DNA from: Firmicutes bacterium ZOR0006
Lineage (GTDB): Bacteria; Bacillota_I; Bacilli_A; Culicoidibacterales; ZOR0006
Assembly: GCA_000798955.1 (NCBI GenBank)
Contig: JTLC01000004.1
Span: 1 to 39,519 of the forward strand
DNA length: 39,519 nucleotides
Reading direction: 5' to 3'
Shown here: piece after piece, positions 12,536 to 39,519 of the stretch
Numbering within the stretch: position 1 is the first letter of the stretch
Layout of the letters: each line of letters starts with the position of its first letter
Program-made: the position numbers and the translations under genes
The notes under the pieces: model-generated
Databases searched by the model: none
Seen by the model: the letters and a program-made list of their open reading frames with translations, nothing else
Told to the model about the DNA's origin: nothing

Positions 12536-13906
12536 ATGAAAATAGCAGTTATTGGATGTACGCATGCGGGTACCGCAGCAATTTTAAACACACGTAAACT
12601 TTATCCTGAAGCCGAAATCACAGTATACGAGCGTAATGATACAATTTCATTTTTATCATGTGGAATTGCATTATATGTTGGTGGAATTGTGAAGGATGCT
12701 AACGGCTTATTTTACTGTTCACCTGAAGCATTAAATGAACTTGGAGTAACAACAAAAATGCAGCATGATGTGCTAGCAATTGATACAAAAGCTAAAAGCT
12801 TATCAGTCCGTAATTTGCAAACTGATGAAGTATTTACCGACACATATGATAAATTAGTCATGACAACTGGGTCTTGGCCAATTGTTCCGTCATTGCCAGG
12901 AATTGAATTGAAAAATATTTTATTGTCAAAAAATTATGATCATGCTAAAGCAATTATTGCTCAAGCCAATAATCCTGAAGTCAAAAATGTTGTTGTTGTT
13001 GGCGCGGGCTATATTGGTGTTGAACTCGTTGAGGCTTTTGAAATGCAAGGCAAGAAAGTCACACTGATTGATGTCAGTGAACGGGTACTAGCCAAATATT
13101 TAGATGCTGAATTTACAACTGTAACTGAGCAAGCAATGCAAGCCAAAGGGATTACACTAGCTTTAAATGAATGTGTTGAAGGCTTTACTGGTCGAGATGG
13201 AAGCGTAACTACTGTGCAAACTAATCATGGTAATCATGAGGCGGATTTAGTTATAATGTGTATTGGCTTTAAACCAAATACAGCTTTATTACAAGGCCAA
13301 GTAGATATGTTACCAAATGGTGCTATTCTTGTTGATGAATATATGCGTTCAAGTAACCCCGATATTTTAGCAGCTGGAGATTGTGCGACAATTTATTACA
13401 ATCCGACAAAAACTTGGCAATATATTCCACTTGCAACGAATGCAGTTCGAATGGGGACATTAGTTGCACATAATTTAGTTGCACCCAAATTACGTTACAT
13501 GGGAACACAAGGAACGTCTGGAATTAAAGTTTATGATGACAACTACGCAGCAACAGGTTTAACAGTGGAGCTAGCGGTAGAAGCTGGTGTTGAAGTAGAG
13601 GTAGCAACGATTACTGATGCGTATCGTCCTGAGTTTATGCCAACTCATGAAGATGTGACGTTAAAACTCGTCTATCGTCGTGATAATCATGTCATTGTTG
13701 GAGCACAGCTCATGTCGAAAATTGATTTAACACCAACAATCAATACAATCTCACTCGCAATTCAAAAAGAAACGACAATTGAAGAGTTAGCATTTGTTGA
13801 TTTCTTCTTCCAACCACACTACAATAAGCCGTGGAATATCTTGAATTTAGCTGGATTAGAAGCAATGCAAGTTGCCAGTGCTGAAAAATTCAATGAAGTT
13901 GAATGA
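12536..13906 (+). CDS. nox: FAD-dependent NADH oxidase (CoA-disulfide reductase family)
   Basis: A 456-residue flavoprotein that oxidises NADH with O2, most likely to water, and so removes oxygen and regenerates NAD+. Seen in sequence: FAD-binding start KIAVIGCTHAG with His10, the single redox Cys42 in SFLSCGIALYVGG, NADH-binding GAGYIGVE near 151-158, the second FAD motif ILAAGDCA near 280, and the C-terminal dimerisation domain. The His10/Cys42 pair and the SCGIALY context are those of the enterococcal Nox/Npr group. Peroxidase activity (Npr) is the main alternative. The ATG has AGGGG upstream. It runs into the DUF309 gene. Confidence 0.9.
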   Translation: MKIAVIGCTHAGTAAILNTRKLYPEAEITVYERNDTISFLSCGIALYVGGIVKDANGLFYCSPEALNELGVTTKMQHDVLAIDTKAKSLSVRNLQTDEVFTDTYDKLVMTTGSWPIVPSLPGIELKNILLSKNYDHAKAIIAQANNPEVKNVVVVGAGYIGVELVEAFEMQGKKVTLIDVSERVLAKYLDAEFTTVTEQAMQAKGITLALNECVEGFTGRDGSVTTVQTNHGNHEADLVIMCIGFKPNTALLQGQVDMLPNGAILVDEYMRSSNPDILAAGDCATIYYNPTKTWQYIPLATNAVRMGTLVAHNLVAPKLRYMGTQGTSGIKVYDDNYAATGLTVELAVEAGVEVEVATITDAYRPEFMPTHEDVTLKLVYRRDNHVIVGAQLMSKIDLTPTINTISLAIQKETTIEELAFVDFFFQPHYNKPWNILNLAGLEAMQVASAEKFNEVE

Positions 13907-19778: not shown

Positions 19779-19816
19779 GAAGAGCTTGTTAGAATCAAAA
19801 CATAAAATTAAAAAAA

Positions 19817-20060
19817 TCTTCGATGACGAGGAGAGTAGCATGCCAGTTTGGTGAAGCGACTAGGGGTTGGTGAAAGCCCTAGCGATGACGACATGTGAAC
19901 CGCACCTTTGAGAACAAGTTTTGAACTTTAGTAGGGACTTGCGTTGCCGGCGTTAACGGATAAGAGGGGTAAAGTCAAATGGCTTTGCAACAAGAGTGGT
20001 ACCGCGAATTTGAACATTCGTCTCTTGATTTGTTATGAATCAAGGACGAATGTTTTTTTG
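19817..20060 (+). promoter_or_regulatory. T-box leader 1 (tRNA-sensing), probably Arg
   Basis: The T-box core AGAGTGGTACCGCG is at 19993-20006. The terminator pairs 20014-20030 with 20038-20053 with one bulge, then seven T. In stem I the specifier loop lies between AGAGTA (19832-19837) and GAACCGCA (19897-19904); CGC (19901-19903, Arg) followed by A is the best specifier reading, with CCG (Pro) or ACC (Thr) as alternatives. The UGGU bulge expects a tRNA ending ACCA, which argues against His. Uncharged tRNA would favour the antiterminator and read-through. Confidence 0.85.
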
Positions 20061-20090
20061 TTCTTGAAACTGACAGAAAACAATAGCATA

Positions 20091-20340
20091 GTGATTCGAG
20101 GAAAAAGAGAGTAGTTTCAAAACGGATGTACAGCGAATAAGGGATGGTGTAAGCCTTATGATCAGTTTGAAATGAACCGCACTTTGGAGAACAAACTTTG
20201 AACGAAAGTAGGAGTTTGCGTTGCCGGCGTTAACGGATAGAGTGGTAAAGTTAGCGATAATTTTACAACGAGAGTGGTACCGCGGAGCAAACCTGTCTTC
20301 GTCTCTTGAAGCAATTCAAGTGACGAGACGGGTTTTTTTG
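20091..20340 (+). promoter_or_regulatory. T-box leader 2, in tandem, same specifier
   Basis: A second complete leader: specifier loop AGAGTA/GAACCGCA with CGC at 20178-20180, core AGAGTGGTACCGCG at 20271-20284, terminator pairing 20291-20310 with 20315-20333 and a T-run to 20339. It shares with leader 1 the identical stretch TGCGTTGCCGGCGTTAACGG, so the pair likely arose by duplication, while the stems above the specifier loop have diverged. It ends 31 bases before the transporter start codon. Confidence 0.85.
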
Positions 20341-25677: not shown

Positions 25678-26181
25678 ATGCATATTTCGATTGACATTTT
25701 ACCAACGCTCGAGATTATGATCGGACATGCGGTTTCTTTAACAATCTTATTGCTCATTTTCTATTTCTTTTTATGGAAACATTTTGCCGCTTATTTAAAT
25801 AAACGGAAAACGATGGTAACAGGTGAGTTTGATAAGGCTCAAGCTGAACAGCAACAAGCTGTGAAAAACGTCGCACGAACAAAAGAAGAATACGAATCAG
25901 CACGAAAACAAGCACGGCAAATTTTGCAAGGTGCTCAATCTGATGCCAAACGGCAACATGAAATGATTGTTGAACATGCCCGTCACGAAGCAAATGCAGA
26001 AATTGCTCGTGGAAAAAATGTCTCAGATCAACTCTATCAACAAGCAATGGAACAATTCAATAAAGATGCAGTAGAGTTAGCAATGAATGCGACAAAAAAT
26101 TTATTAGTTGAACATGCTCAAACAAATCCGCATGATTTAATTAATCAATCATTACAAAAAGTAGGTGAGCTGAATGATTAG
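25678..26181 (+). CDS. atpF: ATP synthase Fo subunit b
   Basis: A 167-residue stator subunit: one N-terminal membrane helix (about 16-36, [21 protein letters not shown]) and a long charged helix for dimerisation. ATG 25678 has AGGAGGT seven bases upstream; a GTG three codons earlier is within that site. Its end overlaps the delta-alpha gene by 8 bases. It is a plain b, not fused to delta as in mycobacteria. Confidence 0.9.
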
Positions 26182-28204
26182 TATTGGAAAAACATATGCG
26201 GATACGATTTTATCGCATTTGAACGATCGCCTGGATCGCTTAGGGGATATTTTTGCTGATATTGAAAAAGTTCACGAATATTTTCAAAGTAACCCTGATA
26301 AATTAGCAACACTTCACGTTGATGATATTCATCGTGAGTTTGGACCGATTGACCCTTACGTTATCTATGTTGTGAAAACGATGATTATCGAGCACACGTT
26401 AGATCATTATGACGAGTTTTACCGCGAGTTTAAATTTATCTTTGAACACAATGCCGAAGTTTTACATGTACGGGTGACCTCAGCAGTAGCTTTAGAAGAA
26501 CCACAAAAAGTAAAATTAATGCAAGAATTAAAAGAAAAGTATCATAAACCAATCGTCATTGATACGCAAATTGACCCAACTGTGATTGGGGGATTACAAA
26601 TTGTCATCGGAAATTTACTTTTTGATGATACGTTACAAACAAAACTTGAGCAAATGCGCCAATATCTGTTACATCTTGAGCATGAAGATGATGTTGAAAT
26701 TGATAAATTTGGTCAAGAATTGCACAAAAAAATTCATGATTTCCAATTAAGTACGGGAATTGTTGAAATCGGTGAAGTTACGTCGGTAGCAGATTCAATC
26801 GTTTTTGCAACAGGTTTAACAGAGATTATGTACAATGAACTTGTGGTGTTTGAAAACGGCTTATTTGGAATTGCGCGTAACCTTGAAGAGGATCAAGTCG
26901 GAATTATCGTCTTTGGTCAAGCAGTTGGAATTCGTGAAGGTCAAATTGTTGCCCGAACATACAAAATCATGTCGGTTCCTGTTGGAGAAGAAATGATTGG
27001 CCGGGTTGTCAATGCCTTAGGTGAGCCAATTGATGGTCTTGGTGAAATTCATGCGAAGCAACAACGAGCAATCGAACAACCAGCGTATGGAGTTATGGAT
27101 CGCCAAAGTGTTAATGAGCCTTTGCAAACAGGGATGAAAGCAATTGATGCTTTAGTGCCAATTGGAAAAGGACAACGGGAATTAATTATCGGCGATCGTA
27201 AAACTGGAAAAACAACAATTGCGATTGATGCGATTTTAAATCAAAAAAACACTGGTGTAATCTGTGTATATGTCGCGATTGGGCAAAAAGATACGACGGT
27301 ACGTTCAGTTGTGAATACCCTACGTGAGTATGGTGCTTTAGATTATACAGTCGTTGTCAATGCATCGAGTGCTGATGCGCCAGCGATGCTCTATGTCGCT
27401 CCATATTCAGGGGTAACAATTGCGGAGTATTTCATGTTACAAGGGAAAGATGTTTTAGTGGTCTACGATGATCTCACACGTCATGCAACGGCATACCGTG
27501 AAATTTCGTTATTACTTGGGCGTCCACCAGGTCGCGAGGCTTACCCAGGAGATGTCTTCTATCTGCATTCACGCTTACTTGAGCGGGCAGCGAAGTTATC
27601 AGATGAGCATGGTGGTGGATCAATTACAGCACTACCAATTGTTGAAACACAATCAAGTGATATTTCGGCCTATATTCCGACAAACATTATTTCAATTACA
27701 GATGGACAAATCTTCCTAGAGTCCGATTTATTTAACTCTGGAGTTCGTCCAGCCATTAATGCCGGACTTTCAGTTTCGCGTGTTGGGGGAAGTGCCCAAA
27801 TTAAAGCGATGAAAAAAGTATCGGGAACATTACGGATTGATTTATCATCATATCGTGAACTAGAAGCCTTTTCACAATTTGGTAGTGATCTTGATGATGC
27901 GACACAACAAAAACTCGAACGTGGAAAACGTGTCGTTGAAGTATTAAAACAACGATCGCACCAAACATTAGCAGTGGAAAAGCAAGTCTTGATTCTCTAT
28001 GCACTTACTCATGGACATCTGGATAGCTTACCATTAGAATTAATCGCTCGGTTTGAAACAAAACTTTACGACCAGTTAGGAGCAACAAGCTTAGGAATGA
28101 AAATTACGGAAACAATTCGCACAACGAAACAATTACCAAGTGATGAGGATCTTGATCAGTTTATTACTGAATTTAAAGCCCTCTTTATGCAACAGGTGGT
28201 GTAG
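26174..28204 (+). CDS. atpHA: ATP synthase delta-alpha fusion protein
   Basis: A 676-residue protein combining two F1 subunits in one frame. Residues 1-168 are delta (OSCP): helical N domain and C domain with [20 protein letters not shown]. After a short acidic linker ([10 protein letters not shown]), residues about 178-676 are a full alpha subunit, from the beta-barrel start ([12 protein letters not shown]) through the P-loop GDRKTGKTT (340-348), [15 protein letters not shown] and [18 protein letters not shown] to the C-terminal helices. There is no stop, no good Shine-Dalgarno and no convincing internal start at the junction (only ATG 161 and TTG 183). F1 has three alpha and one delta, so the fusion poses a stoichiometry problem. 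Confidence 0.9.
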
Positions 28205-37105: not shown

Positions 37106-37127
37106 ACTTGTAAGGAGGTAAGTGTGT

Positions 37128-39107
37128 ATGGATCAATTTCAAATTAAAGCTCCATTTGAACCGAGTGGAGACCAACCAGCGGCAATACGACAACTCGTAT
37201 CTGGACTTCAATCTGGAGCCAAACAACAGATTTTATTAGGAGCGACGGGAACCGGAAAAACTTTTACGATGAGTCAAGTTATCCAGGAAGTAAATCGTCC
37301 AACAATTGTAATTGCCCACAATAAGACGCTCGCGGGTCAGTTATACAGTGAATTAAAGGAGTTTTTCCCAAATAATGCTGTGGAATACTTTGTGAGTAAC
37401 TTTGATTATTATCAACCGGAAGCGTATAAACCTTCAACGGATACCTATATCCAAAAAGATGCCCAAGTCAATGATGAAGTTGAAAAGCTACGATATTCAG
37501 CAACAACGTCATTACTAGAGCGACGAGATGTCATTGTTGTCGCGTCAGTTTCTTGTATTTACGGAATTGGATCGCCAGAAGAATACAAAAGCATGCTTGT
37601 ATCTGTCCGTGTGGGGCAAGAGCGTGATCGCCAAGATTTAATGCGCTCATTAATTGATATCCAATACCAACGAAATGATATTGAATTTGCCCGTGGTACT
37701 TTTCGCGTTCGTGGTGATGTTTTAGAAATCATTCCAATTGGTCAAGACGAGGCTGGAATTCGTATCGAATTTTTTGGTGATGAAATTGAACGCATCAGCG
37801 AAATTGACTTAGTAACAGGTAAAATTTTGGCTGATCGTGAACATGTTGCGATTTTACCAGCGAGTCACTATGTCACGAAACAACATACATTAGACGAGGC
37901 AATTGCTCGAATTGAAGCCGAACTGGTTGAGCAACTTGCGTACTTGGAAAAAGCAGGAAAGTTACTGGAAGCACAACGCCTTGAACAGCGGACAAACTAT
38001 GATTTAGAAATGTTGCGTGAAGTCGGTTTTTGTACGGGAGTTGAGAACTATTCACGGCACTTAACGTTACGTGAAGAGGGGGAAACGCCATTTTGTTTAC
38101 TTGATTTCTTTCCCGATGATTATTTGATGATTATTGATGAGTCGCATGTAACAGTACCGCAAATTGGGGGAATGTACAATGGGGACCGAAGTCGGAAAGA
38201 GGTTTTAGTTGGCCATGGTTTTCGATTGCCATCAGCATTAGATAACCGCCCGCTTCGATTCGATGAATTTATTGCGAAAACGAATCAAATTGTTTATGTT
38301 TCAGCAACACCAGGGAAATATGAACTTGAATTTGAGCCTAAAATACCAGTTATTCAGCAAATTATTCGTCCGACTGGTTTGCTTGATCCTGAAATCACGA
38401 TAAAACCAAGTAAGAATCAAATTGATGACTTATTAGCACAAATTCATTTGCGAATTGATAGAAATGAGCGGGTTTTAGTCACGACCCTCACAATTAAAAT
38501 GAGCGAACAACTTACGAAGTATTTTAAAGAACAAGGTATTAAAGTCGCTTATTTACATTCTGAGATTAAAACACTTGAGCGTATTGCCATTATTCGCGAT
38601 TTACGATTGGGGAAATATGATGTACTTGTCGGGATTAACTTGCTCCGAGAAGGAATTGATATTCCTGAAGTATCCCTCATTGCAATTTTAGATGCTGATA
38701 AAGAAGGGTTTTTACGTTCAGAGCGCTCCTTGATTCAAATTATTGGGCGTGCAGCACGGAATGAGCAAGGACATGTGATTATGTATGCTGATAAAATGAC
38801 AGATTCGATGACAGCAGCAATTTCAGAAACACAGCGTCGTCGCGAAGTACAAAAAGCCTATAACGAGGCACATGGAATTACGCCAAAAACAATTATTAAG
38901 GAAATTCGTGATGTTATATCCGCGAGTGTTGAAGTCAAAGATACGGATAGTGCCTTTCAAACTGACAAAATGTCGAAAAAAGAGCGCGTAAAATTAATTG
39001 AACGTTTACGTAAAGAAATGAAAGAAGCGGCTGCAAAACTCGATTTTGAAACAGCAACACAATTACGTGATGCAATGATGGAAATTGAAGCAACGATGAG
39101 TAAATAG
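37128..39107 (+). CDS. uvrB: Excinuclease ABC subunit B
   Basis: A 659-residue helicase-like subunit of nucleotide excision repair that checks damage handed over by UvrA and recruits UvrC. Walker [11 protein letters not shown] (about 39-48), the beta-hairpin stretch [12 protein letters not shown] near 90, the DESHVT box near 340, helicase motif [16 protein letters not shown] near 545 and the C-terminal UVR domain ([17 protein letters not shown], about 617-650) are all present. AAGGAGGTA lies 7 bases before ATG 37128; the GTG two codons earlier is less likely. uvrA is not in the window. Confidence 0.95.
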
Positions 39108-39203
39108 CAAAAGGGAAAGTCAAAGAAGCGAGCATTACAATAGTTTTGTAATAAAACGACGGATTTGTCATCATAAACTTTAATTCAATCTAATGAATGG
39201 TTA

Positions 39204-39233
39204 AAGACATTCTAAGTCATAAGTCTGTATAAT
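39204..39233 (+). promoter_or_regulatory. Promoter of the C-rich RNA
   Basis: A -35 AAGACA (39204-39209), 18 bp, and a perfect -10 TATAAT (39228-39233). The transcript would start near 39240, directly before the first hairpin. It is 97 bases after the uvrB stop, with no T-run terminator between, so read-through from uvrB is also possible. Confidence 0.5.
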
Positions 39234-39240
39234 AAGGATG

Positions 39241-39489
39241 TAACAAATAATCCCCTATTTGTTGCAACCTATTTACAACCCCCCTTTTTATTTAGTTTTA
39301 TTTCGAATTTTTCTTCTTTGGTCCCCCGCCAAACGAAGCGAAATTCATTGTTATATCTTTGCTTGCGAAATTTCGAATTCCCCCCCTTTTGATATTTTTA
39401 TTCGAAACCGCAAATCCAATGATGTAACACAATCCCCTATAAAGAACGTCTGGTTTTCCCCCCTTTTTTTTCCAGGCGTTCTTTTTTTT
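39241..39489 (+). ncRNA. Candidate small RNA with C-runs in hairpin loops
   Basis: About 250 bases without a convincing gene. Hairpin 1: 39242-39249 with 39256-39263 (8 perfect pairs), loop ATCCCC. A free run of six C at 39279-39284. Hairpin 2: 39305-39321 with 39329-39346, stem blocks GAATTT/AAATTC, CTTC/GAAG and TTTGG/CCAAA, loop TCCCCCG. Hairpin 3: TTGCG (39363-39367) with CGCAA (39409-39413) and TTTCGAAT (39371-39378) with ATTCGAAA (39400-39407), loop with seven C. A free CCCC at 39434-39437. Hairpin 4, the terminator: 39442-39453 with 39472-39483, loop with six C, then T to 39489. C-rich loops could pair with Shine-Dalgarno G-runs. Confidence 0.6.
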
Positions 39490-39492
39490 ATT

Positions 39493-39519
39493 CACGAATG
39501 AAAATTCGTGTTTTTTTTT
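39493..39519 (+). terminator. Second terminator at the window edge
   Basis: CACGAAT (39493-39499) pairs with ATTCGTG (39504-39510) around a GAAA tetraloop, followed by nine T to the window end. It may back up the sRNA terminator or belong to an element that continues beyond the window. Confidence 0.7.

Follow-up and report, generated by a model that had tools for sequence, protein, structure and literature searches.

Several small RNAs (sRNAs) carry C-rich seeds that pair with the translation start region of messengers. The LhrC RNAs of Listeria have several UCCC or other C-rich seeds, pair with the Shine-Dalgarno (SD) sequences of oppA-type messengers independently of Hfq and are controlled by the two-component system LisRK (PMC8079631), and RoxS has four C-rich regions that pair with the SDs of metabolic genes (PMC5419742). 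Work on the IsrR RNA noted that the AT-rich Staphylococcus genome has few G stretches outside SDs (PMC9410917). The streptococcal csRNAs, members of the CiaRH regulon, are complementary to the translation start and are placed under a response regulator by 11-bp-phased repeats next to the -10 box (PMC3091779). Here we describe an RNA gene of ~250 nt (39240-39489, plus strand) from Firmicutes bacterium ZOR0006, found at the end of a 39,519-nt window, by which we mean the whole stretch of DNA analysed (forward strand of contig JTLC01000004.1, assembly GCA_000798955.1). With a probability of roughly 78%, we consider it an independently transcribed, Hfq-independent, trans-acting sRNA that pairs with SDs. 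We know of no regulatory RNA of this kind in this Bacillota order. From the sequence we infer its transcription, its repression of messengers, the identity of its targets and its regulator.

The RNA belongs to a compact transcription unit that fills the final ~300 bases of the window, 3' of uvrB. A promoter scan places a -10 box (TATAAT, 39228-39233), kept in the sister species, ahead of a predicted transcription start near 39240, where G39240 opens a perfect 10-bp hairpin and lies 7 bases past TATAAT. Hairpin 1 (39240-39265), whose stem is identical in both species, holds C4 (39252-39255) in its loop and is followed by a nearly invariant single-stranded C6/U-rich linker (39266-39304; C6 at 39279-39284), hairpin 2 (39305-39346) with the loop GGUCCCCCGCC (C5 at 39323-39327) and hairpin 3 (39349-39429), which has compensatory changes and a large apical loop with C7 (39380-39386). 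A short linker with AAUCCCCUAU (39430-39440; C4 at 39434-39437) leads to an intrinsic terminator (39441-39489) comprising a 13-bp stem with compensatory changes, an 18-nt loop with C6 (39458-39463) and a U8 tail, and a second, backup terminator-like hairpin with a T run lies at 39493-39519. The C-runs therefore measure 4, 6, 5, 7, 4, and 6 in 5' to 3' order, four in hairpin loops (hairpins 1 to 3 and the terminator) and two in single-stranded linkers. A first-pass annotation of the window had counted these six runs correctly and placed them in 190 bases, where the span is 212; the promoter before and the terminator after (a long stem, then T8) were recognized as found here.

Both the fold and the clustering of C-runs exceed chance. 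Positions 39241-39489 fold at -61.1 kcal/mol compared with -25.7 +/- 3.6 kcal/mol in dinucleotide shuffles (z = -9.8; none of 200 as stable), the single hairpins are each significant (z = -10.0, -4.3, -7.0, and -6.9), and every C-run has a mean unpaired probability of 0.96 or more, which bears out the proposal that four of them are exposed in the loops of stable hairpins. In 1.26 Mb of the host genome (38% G+C), read on both strands, six or even five runs of at least four C within 215 nt are unique to the RNA locus; the next-best 215-nt cluster has four runs, of 4-5 C, and nowhere else do more than two runs of at least five C combine in one 215-base stretch. Three of the five CCCCCCTTTT sites genome-wide lie inside the RNA, and the remaining two are antisense to ribosome-binding sites (RBSs), namely AAAAAGGGGGGG-aatc-ATG and AAAAAGGGGGG-attgt-GTG. 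Three seeds read CCCCCC(C)UUUU and are complementary to AAAAGGGGGG. UCCCC stands in the hairpin 1 loop and the last linker and UUCCCCCC in the terminator loop, with each of these motifs unpaired.

The order is represented by four species genomes and the genus by two species, the second of which (G001, contig CAMFJD010000012.1) is the only other genus member in the collections searched. Its orthologous element sits between uvrB and uvrA, the latter named from sequence, and folds with a z of -9.7. Identity between the two species is 64% at the end of uvrB and 45% in the gap after it, compared with 91% in a promoter block at 39175-39219, and 55% in the -10 region. Within the RNA it is 98% over the 5' 65 nt, 69% in hairpin 2, 80% over hairpin 3 and its linker and 86% in the terminator, and past the terminator 48%. 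The single-stranded portions of the 5' third are almost frozen and the stems vary with compensation: MAFFT columns contain five double-sided compensatory pairs, one single-sided pair and no broken pair, and matching the helices loop-outward gives 20 double-sided changes, a tally that gains from the freedom of register in hairpins 2 and 3. A permutation test is stronger than these helix counts because it is register-free; the same 41 substitutions redistributed among the same columns gave -45.0 +/- 4.8 kcal/mol compared with the real -71.2 kcal/mol, with none of 1000 permutations as stable. In neither species is any of the six C-runs paired, and one of their 32 C positions is substituted (the chance of zero being 0.2%). 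Stems kept by compensatory change around conserved C-loops are what the first-pass annotation had proposed looking for in relatives, and the element is a selected RNA structure encoded by a structured, conserved, non-coding gene.

The location of complementary G-runs points to the use of the seeds. For the statistics, ~74% of the host genome (G000, 1.45 Mb) and 43% of that of the sister species (G001, 0.78 Mb) were covered, so that the target lists are partial. G4 or longer is present in 15% of predicted RBSs compared with 1% of the region 26-40 bases upstream, and with first-ATG starts, which are not chosen by SD, the proportions are 13% and 1%. For 10.1% of RBSs, as opposed to 0.6% of coding windows, the most stable duplex with an exposed seed is at -18 kcal/mol or lower. 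Given this concentration of G-runs and strong seed duplexes at RBSs, no other use of the seeds is nearly as likely as SD pairing; the earlier idea of an SD-targeting sRNA with several binding loops is thus strongly favored, the pairing itself being predicted. A pattern search did not locate the 16S tail, and the canonical anti-SD was therefore assumed.

We propose that the four stable hairpins would leave all six C-rich seeds accessible, two of them in linkers and the others in loops, and that each seed would pair with the G-run SD of a messenger, blocking 30S loading, after which the messenger would decay. The differing seed flanks would enable a single RNA to act on many messengers with no need of Hfq. 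Searches for Hfq, which gave matches in control genomes, found none in the host genome or its relatives, and therefore the pairing should be Hfq-free. Among the genes whose RBS has a G-run in both species are those for two OppA-like lipoproteins and a sugar-binding one, a phosphotransferase system (PTS) EIIC and a major facilitator superfamily sugar transporter, as well as peptidases M3 and M29, arginine deiminase, starch/glycogen synthase, an NADH-oxidase-like enzyme and a histidine kinase. This putative set is similar to the LhrC and RsaE regulons for nutrient uptake. LhrC is induced by LisRK and represses oppA, lapB and tcsA, and the two OppA-like genes recall its oppA target, a likeness that is only suggestive. 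Lipoproteins are not significantly enriched among genes with G-run SDs (odds ratio ~1.9-2.5, p = 0.07-0.19).

The conserved block upstream of the RNA suggests how it may be controlled. Its layout is TCTAAT-N5-GTTAAA-N5-TCTAAG-N11-TATAAT, with three half-sites (39189-39194, 39200-39205, and 39211-39216, plus strand) in 11-bp phase, and its identity to the sister species contrasts with 45% just upstream. A phased YTAA triple before a -10-like site occurs once in the 1.45 Mb of the host genome and once in the 0.78 Mb of the sister genome, both times at the RNA locus, and no other copy of the block was found in the sampled genome. Response regulators of the OmpR/PhoB type have sites arranged in this way, those of CiaR being the most similar, and the half-sites, bound by a regulator of this type, would probably stand in for a weak -35 box. 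Because the motif was defined after looking, we hold response-regulator control at slightly less than even odds.

Two side observations concern the same region. Positions 39165-39186, which start just upstream of the conserved block and extend into it, match exactly, over 22 bases, the minus strand of 13521-13542 within an NADH-oxidase-like open reading frame (ORF; 12536-13906), and this may be chance. The extended -10 sequence AAGTCTGTATAATAAGGrTGTA recurs in the sister-family genome G002 (G002:C10, L004 1501-1528) before a gene for a signal-peptide protein and is probably a promoter type common to the order. A 28-nt BLAST match at L004 in G002 was set aside as merely this shared promoter.

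Several points weigh against an SD-pairing regulator. Complementarity between seeds and RBSs is not specific on its own, because any bacterium whose anti-SD is CCUCC should have G-rich RBSs. Orthologues retain a G-run RBS no more often than a GGAGG one (30/50 compared with 51/78), which, together with the lack of significant lipoprotein enrichment, makes the listed targets candidates, and the best single-species target (C2:45669, -28.3 kcal/mol) has not been retained by the sister species. The promoter half-sites were recognized post hoc, and the covariation comes from one pair of sequences because the collections searched contain only two members of the family.

The alternative that fares best, improbable as it is, holds that the RNA imitates the 16S anti-SD globally (CCCCCCUUUU resembles CCUCCUUU), damping translation broadly and addressing no particular gene set. 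The C6U4-5 copies do resemble the anti-SD and 45% of RBSs reach a duplex of -12 kcal/mol or lower, but pure C-runs mismatch the A of GGAGG, the dominant SD (24% of RBSs), and so favor the G-run subset. An extension of the SD-pairing interpretation is that the RNA is a six-seed hub that sorts messengers by SD type, with the G-run genes (~13-15%) switched jointly under a response regulator and those with GGAGG spared. We regard this as unlikely, if less so than global mimicry; if true, OppA-type proteins, sugar and PTS transporters, peptidases, arginine deiminase and glycogen synthesis would be co-switched.

A little less probable than mimicry is a cis element of a uvrB-uvrA unit, either a 3' untranslated region or terminator of uvrB or a leader of uvrA, in which the C-runs would be incidental. 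The RNA lies directly 3' of uvrB (37122-39107, plus strand; an ORF translating to 661 amino acids, named by sequence resemblance and 87% identical to its orthologue in the sister species), in the sister it lies just 5' of uvrA, and its 3' end is a terminator. However, ~67 unconserved bases follow the uvrB stop before conservation jumps at the promoter-like block, which excludes the unconserved uvrB tail that the first-pass annotation had raised as a possibility. Moreover, a terminator needs neither the conserved 5' 65 nt nor open C-runs, two terminator-like hairpins close the region in the window, and neither sister-family genome (G002 and G003) has a match to the RNA model, with G002 carrying other sequence downstream of uvrB. 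On a par with this is a sponge whose C-runs would bind a C-specific protein or titrate G-rich RNA instead of messengers: the runs are pure and repeated, with the C6U4-5 motif present three times as for repeated docking sites, but the complementary G-runs sit preferentially at RBSs, and the six seeds differ in their flanks, which fits varied RNA partners better than one protein. It also counts against a sponge that, to our knowledge, there is no C-run-binding partner in this bacterial group. A coding reading was rejected, as the two species share no ORF and both the ORF at 39259-39501 (80 amino acids, TTG start) and all other frames are broken by indels or stops in the orthologue.

An sRNA pairing with SDs thus remains our preferred interpretation, and the locus has the sequence features of trans-acting C-rich sRNAs of this kind: a promoter-like site, a terminator, conserved unpaired seeds and no ORF. 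The Rfam search suggested in the first-pass annotation returned no family at gathering score and none with support at E up to 10. The LhrC model (RF00616) is a below-threshold match in both orthologues and the top-scoring one in the sister species, and its 19.7 bits in the window and 30.1 bits in the orthologue, compared with a gathering score of 110, place the RNA outside that family; the UCCC motifs in hairpin loop, linker and terminator loop by which LhrC is recognized are all present. For RsaE/RoxS (RF01820), whose gathering score is 79, the two orthologues score 16.6 and 14.9 bits, likewise outside the family. The CiaRH csRNA promoter, NTTAAG-N5-TTTAAG-N10-TATAAT, differs from the one here in its hexamers and, by one base, in its spacing. 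Judged by covariance score, the RNA is neither LhrC nor RoxS and represents a new family within a known type of regulator.

When 395 genomes from the class and 392 from the phylum were searched with a covariance model of the pair, only the two genus members scored highly. One weak class-level match (G044, E = 0.0021) proved by eye to be mostly coding sequence with an ordinary terminator, and two further weak matches had E = 0.009. No paralogues were found in 1.26-1.45 Mb of the host genome, the seed sequence is absent from the viral contigs searched, and the family visible today is, on these searches, confined to one genus. A weak match in G002 (L118) belongs to a different sRNA-like locus. 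This intergenic locus (L118 1440-1650, minus strand; G002:C8 ~73001) has a TATAAT and a terminator loop with C8U5, and it includes a 33-nt segment with 89% complementarity to the RBS and beginning of a small ORF. That ORF is on another contig (L293 ~1500-1535), where the same leader occurs twice. The L118 locus is an unrelated analogue of the C-loop, RBS-pairing design.

Elsewhere in the window, ATP synthase delta (OSCP) and alpha are fused in one ORF of 676 amino acids (26174-28204), a fusion also found in the sister species (87% identical), and an ordinary-length alpha-like ORF (507-515 amino acids) is present elsewhere in all four genomes of the order searched. Two tandem T-box leaders (19814-20309, both 119 bits) precede an amino-acid-type ATP-binding cassette transporter comprising SBP_bac_3, permease and ATPase.

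The closest parallel is LhrC, which the first-pass annotation had cited and which holds in working style and not in family membership. Both RNAs expose C-rich seeds in a hairpin loop, a linker and the terminator loop, but the RNA described here has 250 nt, four hairpins and six seeds, whereas the LhrC model has 111 positions, two hairpins and two or three seeds; in addition, its runs are C4-C7 and it is single copy in the sequence read. It shares multiple C-rich regions with RsaE/RoxS and differs from them in architecture and length. Like IsrR of Staphylococcus, with which its sequence was compared through Rfam only, it has several C-rich seeds with proposed SD pairing; IsrR has three seeds and is controlled by Fur. 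The 11-bp-phased repeats adjoining the -10 box are shared with the csRNAs, but the CiaR site is TTTAAG-N5-TTTAAG-N10-TATAAT and the one here is GTTAAA-N5-TCTAAG-N11-TATAAT, and csRNAs have anti-SD and anti-start-codon sequences in unpaired regions and occur in several copies. The 6C RNA of Actinobacteria has hairpins with C6 loops, and it too had been proposed as a parallel. This likeness is superficial, given that hairpin number, sequence and phylum differ and the Rfam 6C model has no match in either orthologue up to E = 10. Because there is no significant sequence relation to LhrC or RoxS, the multi-seed C-rich design may have arisen repeatedly. The RNA would extend multi-seed, C-rich, Hfq-independent, SD-pairing regulators to this order, with six seeds compared with the two to four of LhrC, IsrR and RoxS, the most among the systems compared, and it makes testable the idea that the choice between GGGGG and GGAGG in an RBS is a regulatory address.
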